In this document: positions 7,109 to 22,715 of the stretch, in pieces | Position numbering within the stretch: the stretch's first letter is position 1 | Layout of the letters: each line of letters begins with the position of its first letter | Origin: a virus | Strand: one strand, 5' to 3' | Virus record (IMG/VR): IMGVR_UViG_3300022074_000083 | Span: 1 to 47,124 of that record | DNA length: 47,124 nt | Position numbers and translations under genes: made by a program | The notes under the pieces: model-generated | What the model saw: only the letters and a program-made list of their open reading frames with translations | Told to the model about the DNA's origin: nothing | Database searches by the model: none

Positions 7109-7271
7109 TTTCTATAGTGCCCCTTAATATTATAGTCTCTAACTGTCTTATTTTTAATTCTAAATCTTCTATTTTTGTTGAACAAGCACATGCAGGTTCT
7201 GCAACTGCATCTATTACATGTTGCTGACCAGAACTAGCTTTTGTTCGTTTTCTTAAATCGTGCACTGCCAT
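7071..7271 (-). CDS. Small protein with C-terminal coiled coil (66 aa), unknown
   Basis: MAVHDLRKRTKASSGQQHVI is followed by an ACAC pair and a short heptad-like helix (KIEDLELKIRQLETIILRG). AGGA lies about 8 bases before the ATG, and the gene starts one base after the 79-aa gene ends. It overlaps the first 38 bases of the adaptor gene in another frame. No family is recognised; placement between capsid and tail genes suggests a minor virion or assembly protein. Confidence 0.55.
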   Translation of the reverse strand: MAVHDLRKRTKASSGQQHVIDAVAEPACACSTKIEDLELKIRQLETIILRGTIENGRDKNILNISK

Positions 7272-14900: not shown

Positions 14901-15199
14901 TTTAGTTTTTCCTCCAAATATTTGGTTAACCAAGGATTATCTACAAGAACAGTTGTTGTTGCATTAGCTAATACATTTACAATATGTTCTTCTTTATCTC
15001 CCACATCTAATCCCCACTGATATATTATAGCATGTAAAACTTCGTGGAGTAAAGTATTAACATGAGATATATTATCTTCGTCAGATAATCCTATCAAACC
15101 TTCCTTTGATAAAAATTGTCCATGTGCATCAGAAAAATTAGTATCAATCTTTTTAAATTCGTAATTCTTATAACCTATCTTTATTGTTTTATGTTTCAT
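14897..15199 (-). CDS. HExxH zinc metallopeptidase-like protein (100 aa)
   Basis: Residues 50-58 read LLHEVLHAI, giving a zinc-binding HExxH (H52, E53, H56). A downstream Glu (E70/E71 in DKEEHIVNVLANA) is well placed as third ligand. Small HExxH proteins of this size recur in marine phages near terminase and portal genes. The fold would be a minimal metzincin- or SprT-like peptidase. It begins at the base where the terminase stop ends, so it is coupled to packaging genes. Processing of a head protein is one possible role; host targets are another. Confidence 0.7.
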   Translation of the reverse strand: MKHKTIKIGYKNYEFKKIDTNFSDAHGQFLSKEGLIGLSDEDNISHVNTLLHEVLHAIIYQWGLDVGDKEEHIVNVLANATTTVLVDNPWLTKYLEEKLK

Positions 15200-16854
15200 T
15201 AGTAACCAAAAACAGAATCGCTAGGTTTATATGTTTGACCAGAAGTCATTTTAATATCATTCATTCTAGTCTCAAAAGCTCTTGGATGTGAAGGTCTTGA
15301 CATACATCCATATCTAAGAGCATCGTAAGCGTGGTCTTCTGCATCTGTATCTACATCTTCTGGGTTGCTTTTGTCAACAGGTAACATTGGTAAAGTTCTA
15401 ATTAAATTTAAACAATTACTAAATACAAATAAAGATGGCCTTTCTGTATCTTCATTTACTCTTAATCGTTTGTGTAATTCTAACTTTCCGTTTATCCTAC
15501 TTCCAGGCGACCTATCAGATGGTCTCCATCTACATCCCTCTTGTATCATAGTCTCTGCAATACTAGGCCCTATATCACCTCGTCTTGCCCATGTTGAAGA
15601 ATCAAGAACTCCGTATCTTATATACTCTCCTGCTTCACTATTCAAGACTCTTTGTGCAAAAATATCTGCTGTAATATTCTTCGTATACAATTCTCTATAA
15701 ATATATATGTTATTGTCGTAATCAACAGCAAACCATAAGCAACATGCAAAAGAAGAGTAACCCCAGTCACAAGAACGAAACCGCATAAAGTTTCTAGGTA
15801 TATCAAAAGGTTCGATGACATGTACCTCTCTACTAAACTCTGGAAAGGCCGAACTTTCATATGACTCCCAATCTCCTTCTAAAAACTGTTTTTTTTGTAC
15901 ATCTGGTAATGATGCTAACATTACATAGTAATCATCTGTTTGCATCAAGTATGGATTATCCTGTAGCTTTGCAGGTATAAATCTTCTACTAATTTTTCTA
16001 TTCCCTGTGGGAGTTTGTATTTCTAAATAAAATTTTGTATTTGGCTGTGCAGGGTCAACAAACATTTCTTTAACCCAACCAGAGCCTACGTTACCAGGGT
16101 TTCCTGTTGCCCTCATAAAGACGGGAATCTCGGGGTCAACACTTCGCAAAGATGAACGGAGAAAATTATATATGTCTGGAGTTGGGTATTGTGGTAATTC
16201 ATCAATACCTATCCATGTGTATGATTGCCCTTGATAACGTAGTGCATCTGTTAGATTTTCAGCATAACCAAATTCTATTCTTGCCCCAGATGGAAACCGC
16301 CATTCTTTTTCCTGCTCTCTCCACTTTGCTCCAGGATATGCTTTGGAATATAACTGCTGAGAATGATTTATTAAATCTCTTAACTCTGGCATTGTTCTTC
16401 TTATTAACAATGCTCTGTGTGCACTTTTGTGACAATAACGTAATGGGTCTACTAACATTGCGTATGATTTGCCACCGCCTCTTGCTCCACCATAGAATAC
16501 TTCTCTTTCTGATGATGCAAGAAATTCTGTTTGAGGCCCAGAGTTAGGTTGAAATATTACTTCTCTTTCTCTTATTGCCTCTTGTATTGAAGGTGTTGCT
16601 TCTTCTATTTGCTGTTCATCTATTACAGCTTTTTCACCTTCTAGTACGCTATCTAATTCTTTTAACTTTTCTTTTTTATTTTCTAGTCTCTTTTCAGCTA
16701 AATCAACTTTTTGTTTAGCATCTTCTAATTTTTCTTTTTCTGCTCGGAGAAGATGTAAAGCGGATTGTCTAGCTTTCTTTTCTGACTCAGAAAGTTTAGG
16801 AACTTTTTTAACTCGTTTACGACCTGCAGTCTTTGGCTTTGGGGGTTCTACCAT
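15199..16854 (-). CDS. terL: Terminase large subunit (551 aa)
   Basis: The ATPase/nuclease motor pumps DNA into the procapsid. Residues 23-80 form a Lys/Glu-rich coiled coil, an unusual N-terminal extension. The Walker A motif is GGARGGGKS at 122-130 and the Walker B motif IGIDE at 215-219. The nuclease domain begins with CDWGYSSFAC (D363), and the conserved Asp-rich DAEDHAYDALRYG lies near the C-terminus. Motifs and length fit a complete TerL. It overlaps the upstream 81-aa gene by 7 bases. Confidence 0.93.
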   Translation of the reverse strand: MVEPPKPKTAGRKRVKKVPKLSESEKKARQSALHLLRAEKEKLEDAKQKVDLAEKRLENKKEKLKELDSVLEGEKAVIDEQQIEEATPSIQEAIREREVIFQPNSGPQTEFLASSEREVFYGGARGGGKSYAMLVDPLRYCHKSAHRALLIRRTMPELRDLINHSQQLYSKAYPGAKWREQEKEWRFPSGARIEFGYAENLTDALRYQGQSYTWIGIDELPQYPTPDIYNFLRSSLRSVDPEIPVFMRATGNPGNVGSGWVKEMFVDPAQPNTKFYLEIQTPTGNRKISRRFIPAKLQDNPYLMQTDDYYVMLASLPDVQKKQFLEGDWESYESSAFPEFSREVHVIEPFDIPRNFMRFRSCDWGYSSFACCLWFAVDYDNNIYIYRELYTKNITADIFAQRVLNSEAGEYIRYGVLDSSTWARRGDIGPSIAETMIQEGCRWRPSDRSPGSRINGKLELHKRLRVNEDTERPSLFVFSNCLNLIRTLPMLPVDKSNPEDVDTDAEDHAYDALRYGCMSRPSHPRAFETRMNDIKMTSGQTYKPSDSVFGY

Positions 16855-17093
16855 CCTCTTTTTAATACCTTGCGTAATCCCATTCCTGTTATTGGCCTAC
16901 CAGTTTTATTTGTAACCCAATCTGCAACTTCTTTGTAGGAACAGTTTTCTAAATATTCTTCTGCCTCTTTCAAAGCATCTAACTGCTCTGGAACAGGTTC
17001 TAACATTCTTTCCTCTTCATCGGATACTTTGTATCCAAAAGGAACTGTTCTACTCCGTAGCTTCCTCTTTGGGCGGGAGAATAAAGATTCCAT
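16848..17093 (-). CDS. Small recombinase-domain-like / HTH protein (81 aa)
   Basis: The sequence VPFGYKVSDEEERMLEPVPE followed by YLENCSYKEVADWVTNKTGR and GMGLRKVLKRGW resembles the DNA-binding Recombinase domain that follows the catalytic part of large serine recombinases. That domain has a PFGY start, a helix-turn-helix and an ending of the type xVxxILxxx. The catalytic resolvase domain is absent, so this is not an active recombinase. Lying between the terminase genes, it could be a DNA-binding packaging accessory. It overlaps both neighbours. Confidence 0.6.
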   Translation of the reverse strand: MESLFSRPKRKLRSRTVPFGYKVSDEEERMLEPVPEQLDALKEAEEYLENCSYKEVADWVTNKTGRPITGMGLRKVLKRGW

Positions 17094-17442
17094 GTGCTAC
17101 CTTTGCATTTATATCTAGTTTTTCTTTTCTAGCTAAACCTACTCTATCTAGAATTTGTTTAGCCGCTTCTATTCTAATATTTGCTCCTGGAGTTTTTCCA
17201 TCTTCATCAAGAGCATTTATTAAACCCATTGTTGCTTTTGGACTGTGTACAGCCAACTGATGTTCAGCCCTTTCTATAATTTCTTCTTTTAAACTTTTTA
17301 ATACTTTAGGATAAGAGTTTGCAGAATATCCTGCTATCTCTCCTGCCATCTTTGGATTACCCTGTGCTTCACCAAATAAAGCATTAAGAAATTTTTCTTG
17401 TTGTTCTGTTAATAAATCGTTTTGTTTTTTAGGAACTAACAT
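17050..17442 (-). CDS. terS: Terminase small subunit (130 aa)
   Basis: The start at 17442 (MLVPKKQNDLLTEQQEKFLN) is chosen because it gives the usual TerS beginning; upstream residues are Lys-rich read-through. Residues 8-60 form a helix-turn-helix-type region (FLNALFGEAQGNPKMAGEIA), followed by a helical oligomerisation part (NIRIEAAKQILDRVGLARKE) and a short beta C-terminus (HGIFILPPKE). TerS recognises phage DNA and loads TerL. It overlaps the 98-aa gene and the 81-aa gene by a few bases. Confidence 0.8.
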   Translation of the reverse strand: MLVPKKQNDLLTEQQEKFLNALFGEAQGNPKMAGEIAGYSANSYPKVLKSLKEEIIERAEHQLAVHSPKATMGLINALDEDGKTPGANIRIEAAKQILDRVGLARKEKLDINAKVAHGIFILPPKEEATE

Positions 17443-17725
17443 TTCTAATCTTCTGTAATTTTTTTTCTGTTTTTTCTTGTAACCACTCTGGTGTTTTTCT
17501 AAGACCAACTTGGTCTTCTATTTGTCTTTGCCTCATACCTGCTCTTGCTGATTGTAGTATCTGGTCTCTTGCTCCATGTTCTTTTCTATCTATCGTTGCA
17601 AGTCTTGGTGCGTTAATCAGCAATTCGATATTCTTATCTTTCAAAGGTTTCTTTCTATCTTTGATTGGAAGATACTCTGTGAATATCTTTCCTGTTAATT
17701 TATTTCTGTATTCGTATATTGGCAT
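17429..17725 (-). CDS. FmdB-like N-terminus without cysteines (98 aa)
   Basis: The start MPIYEYRNKLTGKIFTEYLP copies the MPxYEYxCxxCGxxF opening of FmdB-type zinc ribbons, but the cysteines are replaced (N, G). The later CPxC is also missing, so no metal site remains. Similar cysteine-free forms occur in marine phages as I recall. The rest is a helical Lys/Arg/Gln-rich tail. It overlaps TerS by 14 bases and shares TAATG with the upstream 32-aa gene. Function unknown. Confidence 0.65.
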   Translation of the reverse strand: MPIYEYRNKLTGKIFTEYLPIKDRKKPLKDKNIELLINAPRLATIDRKEHGARDQILQSARAGMRQRQIEDQVGLRKTPEWLQEKTEKKLQKIRNVSS

Positions 17726-17824: not shown

Positions 17825-18598
17825 TTACTTCTCTCCTTTTATTAAGTTAAAATATTCTTTTTGGTATGAATTTAAATCTAATATACTTTCTATACTAGAA
17901 TCTTTTTCACATAATTTTTTATACATATTTTTATTGCTTATCCAACCTCTGCCTGTCCAAAACTCAAAACCATCAAATCGTGATTTATACATACTACTTT
18001 TTTCATATGAATATGACAAGTAATATTTTTTACATTTGTTTTCAATAGCCCATTTTATTTCAAACAGTGTTGCATAAGTCCCAAGACTTAATTTAGGATT
18101 TTTATAGTCCCATGCAAACTGTCCAGTTACGACATGCTTACTTGCAAATACTTTTAATTCTGTAAATGCAACTGGAGCATTTTGATGATAGTAAATAAAA
18201 TATTTCCAATCAATAGGGTCATCCTTAATAAATATTTCACTATCTTCTTCGTTACCCTTTTCGTAATAATCTTTATGCTTAATATATTTTATGTATATAT
18301 CAGAAACAATCGCACTTAAATTTTTATCAAGTTTGTCAAAGATTTTTACTGTAATATCTTTTTTATTTAATATCTTCCTTTGTTTTTTACTAAATGTAAA
18401 TTTAGGTAAAATTAATCTAGACCCTCTAGCATTTATCCAAGTCATTTGATGTAACTTTTTGTAATACCATGATAGGGGTATCCAACCATTATCTAGTGCA
18501 TAGCCATATTCATCTTCATCAAATGTTGCCAGTGCTAACGAATAAACTAAATCGTGGTTTGTAAGTTTACCCGTTATGTGGTCAAAAAATATTTTCAT
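17825..18598 (-). CDS. Ate1/Bpt-like aminoacyl-tRNA-protein transferase (257 aa)
   Basis: Residues 60-80 (SRLILPKFTFSKKQRKILNK) and 171-220 match the two halves of the arginyl/leucyl-tRNA-protein transferase fold. The second half reads SLGTYATLFEIKWAIENK, then KYYLSYSYEKSSMYKSRFDG, compare SLGTY...YYLGYY...KMxYKxRF in Ate1/Bpt. Cellular enzymes of this GNAT-like superfamily attach Arg or Leu from tRNA to protein N-termini and mark them for the N-degron pathway. The cysteine-rich N-terminal region of eukaryotic Ate1 is missing, as in bacterial Bpt. It could retarget host protein turnover; the actual substrate is unknown. Confidence 0.7.
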   Translation of the reverse strand: MKIFFDHITGKLTNHDLVYSLALATFDEDEYGYALDNGWIPLSWYYKKLHQMTWINARGSRLILPKFTFSKKQRKILNKKDITVKIFDKLDKNLSAIVSDIYIKYIKHKDYYEKGNEEDSEIFIKDDPIDWKYFIYYHQNAPVAFTELKVFASKHVVTGQFAWDYKNPKLSLGTYATLFEIKWAIENKCKKYYLSYSYEKSSMYKSRFDGFEFWTGRGWISNKNMYKKLCEKDSSIESILDLNSYQKEYFNLIKGEK

Positions 18599-18601
18599 TC
18601 A

Positions 18602-19270
18602 TTACAGATGGCCCTTGCCTTTGTCATAACTCGTTCCTTGATTATCTATAAACTCTGTTATGTAAGAGTCATCTGTAAACTTATCTTCTCTAGTATTCTC
18701 TACTGTGTAAACTGTTTGGTCAATTTTATATCCAGGATTTTGTAATAATCTATTTGAAATGTAAGAATCATCCATCCAAATAATTCTGTTATTAGGGTAT
18801 ATAAAAAAATTACCATCATCCATTTTAAACAGATGTCCACATTTATGTTCTGGGTCTTCTGAGAAATTAGTATCAGTTGTGCCTGCTTTGTTTTCCCATG
18901 ACCAATCTATTGTGAACATATATGTTCCTCTTCTCCATGTGCCTTTGTAATCTATTAGGTCTGCTCTGCAGTTTGCTAATCTATTTCTTCTATTCACATC
19001 AACATATGGAGAAAAACAATCCCAATACATGTGAATGTTTAAATTATGTACTGGTGCATCTTTCTTCCAACAAAAGGCATGTATTGGTCTTCTTGTCCAG
19101 TTTACTCCATTCTCAAGTAAACATTCAAACAGTGGTACTCTTCTTTCTAAACTTGCAACGCTGTGAACATCGCATACACTAAAACTACCATGGCCTTTTT
19201 CGTGGTCATACATGTATTCATCTCTAATGAAACAATTAAATACGGGTAAGTTATGATTTAAAAATGCCAC
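18602..19270 (-). CDS. Conserved marine-phage protein, function unknown (222 aa)
   Basis: MAFLNHNLPVFNCFIRDEYM begins a Trp/Tyr/Cys/His-rich globular protein (HEKGHGSFSVCDVHSVASLE, RPIHAFCWKKDAP, YMFTIDWSW) with no signal peptide. I recall the same opening and the AFCW motif in several marine phage genomes, always unnamed. It lies 3 bases from the Ate1-like gene and directly after the basic-protein cluster, so it is in the late transcript. Confidence 0.7.
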   Translation of the reverse strand: MAFLNHNLPVFNCFIRDEYMYDHEKGHGSFSVCDVHSVASLERRVPLFECLLENGVNWTRRPIHAFCWKKDAPVHNLNIHMYWDCFSPYVDVNRRNRLANCRADLIDYKGTWRRGTYMFTIDWSWENKAGTTDTNFSEDPEHKCGHLFKMDDGNFFIYPNNRIIWMDDSYISNRLLQNPGYKIDQTVYTVENTREDKFTDDSYITEFIDNQGTSYDKGKGHL

Positions 19271-20934: not shown

Positions 20935-20962
20935 ATTATAGCGGGTATGAGCATCTTGTCAA
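20935..20962 (-). promoter_or_regulatory. Consensus sigma-70 promoter for the leftward late operon
   Basis: On the minus strand TTGACA (20957-20962) and TATAAT (20935-20940), both perfect, are separated by 16 bases. The expected start is near 20928, and the first gene begins at 20859. It faces away from the plus-strand promoter at 20980 and the two -35 boxes are part of an inverted repeat TTGTCAAG/CTTGACAA. Confidence 0.85.
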
Positions 20963-20979: not shown

Positions 20980-21008
20980 TTGACAATAATGCTCTCCACA
21001 TGTATAAT
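20980..21008 (+). promoter_or_regulatory. Consensus sigma-70 promoter pointing into noncoding DNA
   Basis: TTGACA (20980-20985) and TATAAT (21003-21008) are perfect and spaced by 17 bases. The transcript would start near 21015 and no plus-strand ORF of note follows before 22932. It is therefore the presumed promoter of the noncoding RNA at 21015-21380 or of an antisense RNA to the leftward genes at 21399-22715. Confidence 0.8.
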
Positions 21009-21014
21009 ATATAT

Positions 21015-21380
21015 TGCCTACCAAGGGGGGCCCTATATATATGGAAATGATTTAGAGTAGTTTCATTCCTTTCAGCTCTATATTATAGTACCATACTTAG
21101 GAATAATACTTCAGTCATATTATTAAACTTACCCCCCTTGATATGGCTAAGGTGGTTTCAAATGATTTTCAGTATTTTTACCCCGTGGTCGTATATATAG
21201 GAAGGTACACCCCCCACTGCCACCTGCATGGGTACACGCAAGACAATCTTTTTATATTCTAGGGAAACAATCCCTTGTGGTTTTATCCCTGTGGGAATAG
21301 AGGTGGGTCAATATTTTGTATTTATTTGGTTTCAATTAAAGGAATAAAAAAAACCCCCATGAATTAACAAGGGGGCTTTT
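21015..21380 (+). ncRNA. Candidate structured noncoding RNA, ~365 nt
   Basis: The block 20860-21398 has no gene. From the consensus promoter, the plus-strand sequence can form a 9-bp helix CAAGGGGGG (21022-21030) with CCCCCCTTG (21132-21140). That helix encloses two hairpins: GGAAATGA/TCATTCC (21043-21069, one bulge) and AATAATA/TATTATT (21102-21124). Further hairpins are AGGGA/TCCCT (21261-21275) and TCCC/GGGA (21286-21296). The 3' end coincides with the terminator hairpin at 21354-21375, followed on this strand by CTTTT. GC-rich runs in an AT-rich genome support structure. An origin of replication or packaging site is an alternative reading. Confidence 0.5.
21345..21377 (-). terminator. Terminator below the 101-aa gene, possibly bidirectional
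   Basis: On the minus strand a CCCCC...GGGGG stem (21371-21375 with 21354-21358, plus TG/CA pairs) is followed by eight or nine T. It closes the gene ending at 21399. On the plus strand the same hairpin is followed by CTTTT and could end the candidate RNA. Confidence 0.8.
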
Positions 21381-21398: not shown

Positions 21399-21704
21399 TT
21401 AAAATAATTGTGGGTGTTCGCTTATTTCGTTGTGGTATTCTCTCTCTCTTTCTTCTTTGTATTCTTTCTCTCTCTGTAACATAACCCTATCAATCTCACT
21501 ATTAAACTTATCAAAGTTAAATAGCTTATTATCTTTCTTTAACATAGTTGTAATATTATCTTTCATATTTATAAACTCATTAATTAAGTCTTGCTTGGTT
21601 TCATAATCTATTTGATTAATAGTAGCTTTTCCAAATTGTTCTAAATGGAATTTAAAAGTACCTAGATAGTCAGCTAATTTAAAATAATGTTTTTTACTTG
21701 CCAT
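21399..21704 (-). CDS. Unknown helical protein (101 aa)
   Basis: MASKKHYFKLADYLGTFKFH is followed by a charged helical body (NLINEFINMKD-like middle, YKEEREREYHNEISEHPQLF end). There is no recognised family. It sits between two terminators with an AAAGGA ribosome site, so it may be a separate unit from the 298-aa gene. Both leftward genes flank the divergent promoters and could be regulators, but no helix-turn-helix is obvious. Confidence 0.7.
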   Translation of the reverse strand: MASKKHYFKLADYLGTFKFHLEQFGKATINQIDYETKQDLINEFINMKDNITTMLKKDNKLFNFDKFNSEIDRVMLQREKEYKEEREREYHNEISEHPQLF

Positions 21705-21818: not shown

Positions 21819-22715
21819 TTAAGCAGCAATAGGACTTTTTACAGCTTCAGCTTTTTTAACCTTTTCCTTTTCTCTCTTTTCTTCTTCATCTATTTTTAAA
21901 TTAGCATGTTCTTCAACTTGGTTTAATGTTTCAAGAATACTAGTATTAAAATTTTCAAATAGTTCTGTGAAATCGTTATCACTATCTATTAATGTTTTAA
22001 TATCGCCATGCTCTTTATTAGTGAAATCAGTATTATAAAACTTATCCATTAAATTATATCTAAATGAAGAGTCATCTATAGCTTTTCTCATGAACTCTAC
22101 AAATTTATATAATTGATGCGAACTTGTCGAACTATTGGACTCGCCTTTATTTCTAAAAGTTTTTCCATGTAGTTTTTCCATGCCATCTATTGTGATTGGT
22201 ATTCTTTTAGAATCATCGGGGGTTACCCATTGTTTAGTTTCATTCCCCTCTTCATCCATTCCAATTTCTTGAATTTTATCAGTAACAACTTTTTGTTGAA
22301 CTGTAATTGTTGGCTTTTGAGATTTACCTAATAACTCTATTGATATTTTACCAACACCATAAAATTGTAATTCAGATAGCATTGAAGCTCTAGAAATAGC
22401 ATTATCAAAACTTTTATTTTTTAATACTCTTCCTGTTGTTTTATCTACTGATTTAATTTTATAAGTATTTCTAATTGTTGTTGTGATATCTTTTCTAGTA
22501 ATATCGTTAATACCATCGTTTTGATATGCCTTGTAGATATTACCACATACCCCAACCAACTCAAAGAATATACTTGAATTGTCGTTTTTTGTTTTCTCAT
22601 TAAATAACTTTTTTGTTATATCATAAGTATTTTGGGTTAACTCTACATTGCCACATATTACATTAGCATTATAAGTTTCGCCCACATTATTTTTAAATTG
22701 TAATGTATCAGTCAT
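21819..22715 (-). CDS. First leftward gene, unknown (298 aa)
   Basis: The N-terminal half (MTDTLQFKNNVGETYNANVI, ITKKLFNEKTKNDNSSIFFE) is mixed alpha/beta. The middle carries TITVQQKVVTDKIQEIGMDE, and the C-terminal ~100 residues are helical and charged, ending KKAEAVKSPIAA. No domain is recognised. It is driven by the promoter at 22803-22832 with a perfect palindromic site beside the -35, and has its own terminator. It is therefore a single-gene, probably early and regulated, unit. It is a candidate regulator or host-takeover protein. Confidence 0.8.
   Translation of the reverse strand: MTDTLQFKNNVGETYNANVICGNVELTQNTYDITKKLFNEKTKNDNSSIFFELVGVCGNIYKAYQNDGINDITRKDITTTIRNTYKIKSVDKTTGRVLKNKSFDNAISRASMLSELQFYGVGKISIELLGKSQKPTITVQQKVVTDKIQEIGMDEEGNETKQWVTPDDSKRIPITIDGMEKLHGKTFRNKGESNSSTSSHQLYKFVEFMRKAIDDSSFRYNLMDKFYNTDFTNKEHGDIKTLIDSDNDFTELFENFNTSILETLNQVEEHANLKIDEEEKREKEKVKKAEAVKSPIAA

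Follow-up and report, generated by a model that had tools for sequence, protein, structure and literature searches.

A conserved DNA box of about 83 bp, located at an operon junction of the virus record IMGVR_UViG_3300022074_000083 (positions 1 to 47,124; this whole stretch of 47,124 nucleotides is hereafter called the window), is probably the packaging signal (pac site) of the phage, with an early promoter and its leader running across it in some lineages. The box lies within 21015-21380, a stretch for which a reading made from the sequence alone had proposed a structured noncoding RNA with a possible terminator/antiterminator switch. The coordinates of the features are listed in Table 1.

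Table 1 Features of the window that bear on the proposed pac site
Feature	Position	Strand	Evidence or remark
Terminase large subunit (TerL)	15199..16854	-	phrog_979, E 5e-59; 67% identical to HTVC033P TerL
Terminase small subunit (TerS), presumed box reader	17050..17508	-	59% identity to annotated HTVC033P TerS
Leftward sigma-70 promoter TTGACA-16-TATAAT	20935..20962	-	12/12; drives the operon to terS, terL and structural genes
Rightward sigma-70 promoter TTGACA-17-TATAAT	20980..21008	+	12/12; expected transcript start near 21016
Helix P1, 5' strand CAAGGGGGG	21022..21030	+	pairs with 21132-21140; p 0.027 against shuffles
Helix P1, 3' strand CCCCCCTTG	21132..21140	+	two G-C pairs read G-U in L012/L191/L014/L190
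Conserved box, proposed pac site	~21151..21233	+	aligned across HMO-2011-type phages; phiM6 homologue 48 bp from packaging start
Box parts GGTGGTTTCAA; GTATATATA; CCCCCC; TGCCACCTGCATGGG	21151..21161; 21191..21199; 21210..21215; 21218..21232	+	
Predicted first packaging cut, then leftward packaging	21260..21300		by transfer from phiM6
Intrinsic terminator of gene 21399-21704 (the 'terminator' of the sequence-only reading)	21354..21373	-	minus-strand score only; followed by T8

Gene context and promoters

TerL of the window is approximately 50% identical to its counterparts in Puniceispirillum phage HMO-2011 and the Roseobacter CRP phages and 67% identical to that of Pelagibacter phage HTVC033P, and on the basis of these identities the window is assigned to the HMO-2011-type phages. 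The ORF at 17050-17508 matches the terminase small subunit family phrog_51 (E 0.002) and is 36% identical (E 1e-18) to gp1 of phage phiM6, which adjoins the phiM6 pac. Minus-strand genes to the left of the locus lead to terS, terL and the structural genes. To its right, two minus-strand genes (ORFs 21399-21704 and 21819-22715) are followed by rightward primase, helicase and polymerase genes. The ORF pair 17825-18598 / 18602-19270, between terS and the box, holds an arginyl-tRNA-protein transferase C-terminal domain (Pfam PF04377, E 2e-8) and a ferredoxin-like protein (phrog_3704, E 2e-50).

The perfect plus-strand promoter named by the sequence-only reading was recovered in the promoter scan with all 12 consensus positions. 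That reading had missed another perfect promoter, which lies on the minus strand; most relatives carry an equally placed leftward promoter (10-12/12). The rightward promoter scores 10-12/12 in pelagiphage-type relatives, compared with 8-9 in shuffled sequences, and sits 100-220 bp upstream of the box in pelagiphages, whereas in CRP-1, CRP-345, HMO-2011, L321, L355 and phiM6 it is no better than shuffled sequence. A transcript from the rightward promoter is likely, since this promoter is perfect in the window and conserved in the pelagiphage lineages.

The stretch downstream of the promoter is non-coding, as had been claimed: within 21015-21380 there is no ORF of at least 70 aa, only ORFs of 20-39 aa, and none of those overlapping it is conserved. 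The candidate for a small conserved protein, 39 aa at 21143-21262, was rejected, as it spans only 12 codons in relative L014. No tRNA or tmRNA was found, Rfam gave no match in the window at gathering scores (in the region, matches only below them), and no direct DNA similarity was found in named phages and plasmids.

A conserved box at the operon junction

Among relatives gathered by terminase and neighbour-gene searches, an ordered set of DNA elements recurs, composed of GGTTnnCA (or a variant), GTATATATA, a C- or G-tract and TGsCAC.TGC. This box was found in all major HMO-2011-type lineages examined, i.e. pelagiphages, roseophages, HMO-2011 and rhizobial phages, except CRP-212, which gave no clear match. 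It is positioned where the leftward packaging/structural operon and the rightward genes meet, often directly upstream of terS; in the window, the CRP phages and HMO-2011, 3.6 to 7 kb separate the two, and the box tracks the operon junction rather than the terS gene. No box was present within the stretches searched of Aeromonas MQM1 and Vibrio CHOED, two more distant terminase relatives.

A blind scan of 2.9 million viral contigs was performed with the DNA pattern TATATATAC-N{0,9}-ACCCCCC alone. Among the matches checked, many contigs carried an HMO-2011-type terS or terL near the motif; some (e.g. L299 and L304) had neither and likely matched by chance. A core model calculated from 25 marine box sequences, with no sequence of the window clade or of rhizobial phages, found its best match in the window at 21191-21228 (E 0.023), the next reaching E 4.3, which corresponds to a single site per genome. 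The same model matched upstream of terS in RHph_N3_13 and RHph_I3_11 (both E 2e-5) and in RHph_N3_19 (E 0.003). HTVC033P and HTVC115P fit it poorly.

Close relatives (L007, L010, L012, L014, L184, L190 and L191) have the leader in common over whatever part of it their contigs cover; distant ones (L052, L074, L042, L033, L070 and others, and the isolates HTVC033P, HTVC103P, CRP-1 and HMO-2011) have little of the leader and retain the box. L355, CRP-1 and HMO-2011 keep the box without the rightward promoter or leader, L355 being devoid of the leader. In L036 the homopolymer tract reads C7, whereas its relative L037, with similar flanks, has G7; L070, L064, L151 and HTVC115P carry a G-rich tract. 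The flip between L036 and L037 makes it more likely that the tract acts as duplex DNA than as pairing RNA. An RNA switch predicts neither a box without promoter and leader nor a swap between C- and G-tracts. The persistence of the box without promoter or leader, the C/G flips of its tract and a leader fold at the level of shuffles in most lineages (see below) together favour a function of the family-wide element as DNA rather than as RNA.

Three further sequence features were observed around the box. The tract and the next few box bases differ at several positions between L012 and L191 (CCCCCCCATGGCACC and CCCCCACCTGCCACC, respectively), the leaders being otherwise similar; judged from this pair and from L036/L037, the centre of the box seems to change more rapidly than the sequence around it. 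In L340, L278, L365 and HTVC103P (L098), AGTTTACA occurs in the box and also in the spacer of the leftward promoter, and one protein might bind both places. Lastly, a conserved block, CAACTGTTATGGAATCAGTTGCC, lies approximately 150 bp beyond the box in CRP-1 (L102, ~7165-7190) and CRP-345 (L386, ~1730-1753), and in slightly changed form in HMO-2011.

RNA folding of the leader

The 9-bp helix closing two hairpins that the sequence-only reading had described is present in the RNAfold prediction, but the fold is not more stable than expected by chance (z -0.62 over 374 nt, with 26 of 100 shuffles as good; z -1.4 over 222 nt). In most lineages, too, the leader folds no better than shuffled sequences. 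The repeated segments exist exactly as described, CAAGGGGG at 21022 and 21368 and CCCCCCTTG at 21132-21140. Allowing one mismatch, the window contains 8 copies of CCCCCCTTG, where 3.4 are expected; 3 of 100 shuffles reach this count.

Pairing of the 5' end with a segment around 110 nt downstream exceeds the shuffles in the window (p 0.027) and, with different sequence, in L064 (p<0.001), L070 (p 0.015) and HTVC033P (p 0.028); in most other lineages it is not above shuffles (p 0.1-0.9). On these comparisons helix P1 is plausible but limited to certain lineages. A family-wide 5' helix was rejected, being absent from most lineages, and a universal helix between the 5' G-tract and the C-tract of the box is contradicted by L036 and L037, in which the tract flips and the 5' end is little changed. 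The check by covariation that had been suggested for the proposed helices gave no two-sided compensatory change: in the seven close relatives none of the base pairs of the fold had changed on both sides, and two G-C pairs became G-U by one-sided changes.

The arm at 21368, taken earlier as part of a plus-strand terminator, belongs to a hairpin (21354-21373) that scored on the minus strand only. The plus-strand terminator scan does not list it, and on that strand only CTTTTAAAA comes after the hairpin. In L070 and HTVC033P the third arm lacks complementarity. Nor does a gene to be regulated follow on the same strand, as 21399-21704 and 21819-22715 are both encoded on the minus strand. The terminator/antiterminator switch is thus not supported, and what stands of the earlier proposal is a probably transcribed, non-coding stretch in a conserved place. 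That a separate, trans-acting small RNA with such a switch is encoded here appears extremely unlikely: the perfect promoter, the lack of a conserved ORF and the complementary GC segments would suit it, but the plus-strand terminator and an Rfam match are missing, the third arm is not conserved and the z-score of the fold is unremarkable.

A cis-acting role of the rightward leader, exerted on RNA polymerase or on translation of the early operon, has more in its favour and is still an unlikely account of the locus. The antitermination element put of phage HK022 is a structured 5' leader RNA of an early phage transcript, and the leader described here resembles it as a structured 5' leader of an early transcript. 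The conservation of a perfect promoter in pelagiphages is consistent with such a function, as are the 5' helices of different sequence in four lineages and the course of the leader toward rightward genes in L090 and HTVC103P. Unlike put, however, no RNA structure is conserved across the family. Close relatives show no covariation, folding is not above chance in most members, the next genes in the window lie on the opposite strand, and the box is conserved without the leader.

Relation to the packaging start of phiM6

The Sinorhizobium phage phiM6 is a relative of HMO-2011, and its pac was predicted from sequencing reads by PhageTerm and set as position 1 of the genome (PMC6256558). In the whole phiM6 genome (68,176 bp), the best match of the core model is located at positions 97-49 of the record, 48 bp from position 1. 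By itself this match is weak (E 0.8-2.2 depending on search size, E 0.08 with rhizobial boxes added; next best E 7-20), and the phiM6 pac is a read-based prediction. The chance that a random best match falls within 100 bp of a given point is ~0.003. Over the same stretch, phiM6 and N3_13 align directly (E 2e-13). A first core model, from 40 diverse sequences, had missed the phiM6 site, and by the time the narrower 25-sequence core was built the phiM6 sequence had already been inspected, so this step was not blind; the evidence for a pac site is for these two reasons good rather than conclusive.

The phiM6 locus is similar to that of the window in its homologous TerS, in the placement of the site upstream of terS at an operon junction and in the box-like sequence near the packaging start. 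In contrast, its sequence resembles the marine box weakly, Rhizobium phages forming the bridge between the two, it has no strong rightward promoter, and its box lies ~0.5 kb from terS compared with 3.6 kb in the window.

In the 13 whole contigs obtained by the motif scan, ends were much nearer on the right of the box (median 614 bp) than on the left (6364 bp; p 0.003). On the right the ends cluster at distances of up to ~1 kb from the box, and no such cluster is present on the left. A physical DNA end could contribute to this asymmetry, and strain variation downstream of the box could do so likewise.

The junction between divergent operons is also an expected place for a replication origin or an operator. 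In the primary origin of T7 and in RNA-primed origins of the ColE1 type, a promoter is followed by an AT-rich element. By analogy, the AT-rich palindrome of the box would unwind and the transcript of the upstream promoter would prime replication. The arrangement in the window is alike in having a promoter and then an AT-rich element, here a palindrome beside the G/C tract, and the strong promoter 100-220 bp upstream in pelagiphages, the single box per genome and its location at the divergence point and at the GC-skew turn of the window fit as well. The promoter is not conserved family-wide, however, being absent in the CRP, HMO-2011 and phiM6 lineages; the skew merely follows gene orientation, for which reason locating an origin by GC skew was rejected; and the phiM6 box coincides with the packaging start. 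We therefore regard an origin as improbable, and a pac site as the favoured function of the box.

Proposed mechanism and significance

In P22 and SPP1, pac is a single cis-acting DNA signal that is read by TerS and from which headful packaging proceeds. The pac site proposed here would be of the same kind, a single cis DNA signal for TerS. It differs from the P22 pac, which is located inside the P22 TerS gene, in being intergenic, at an operon junction and of other sequence. TerS of the window phage would bind the box through its AT-rich palindromic stretch, the C/G tract and the TGsCAC.TGC half-site. Terminase (TerL) would then make the first cut ~50 bp to the right of the box, and heads would fill leftward through terS, terL and the structural genes; binding, cut site and direction are predicted by analogy, the cut being transferred from phiM6. 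The strong rightward promoter is probably an early promoter in the pelagiphage lineages, with an untranslated leader that would cross the pac region; this would account for the lack of coding sequence in the stretch and for its partial foldability. It is very unlikely that in pelagiphages the perfect promoter serves to transcribe a structured RNA through the packaging site, where the transcript or an R-loop would expose pac or help in its recognition, or would join the motor in the manner of the phi29 pRNA, and thereby couple early transcription to the start of packaging.

Published work (PMC9038755) describes HMO-2011-type phages as dominant in the ocean and broadly distributed there. A packaging signal is ordinary in kind, but in the marine phages of this abundant group none has apparently been described, as judged from the literature searched. 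The interpretation of this non-coding stretch as an RNA switch, although plausible, was wrong, and the present analysis corrects it. With the box as a conserved and searchable element, the packaging start can be predicted in many genomes, and metagenomic contigs could be oriented and closed; it also offers a concrete site for a direct test in cultured isolates or relatives.
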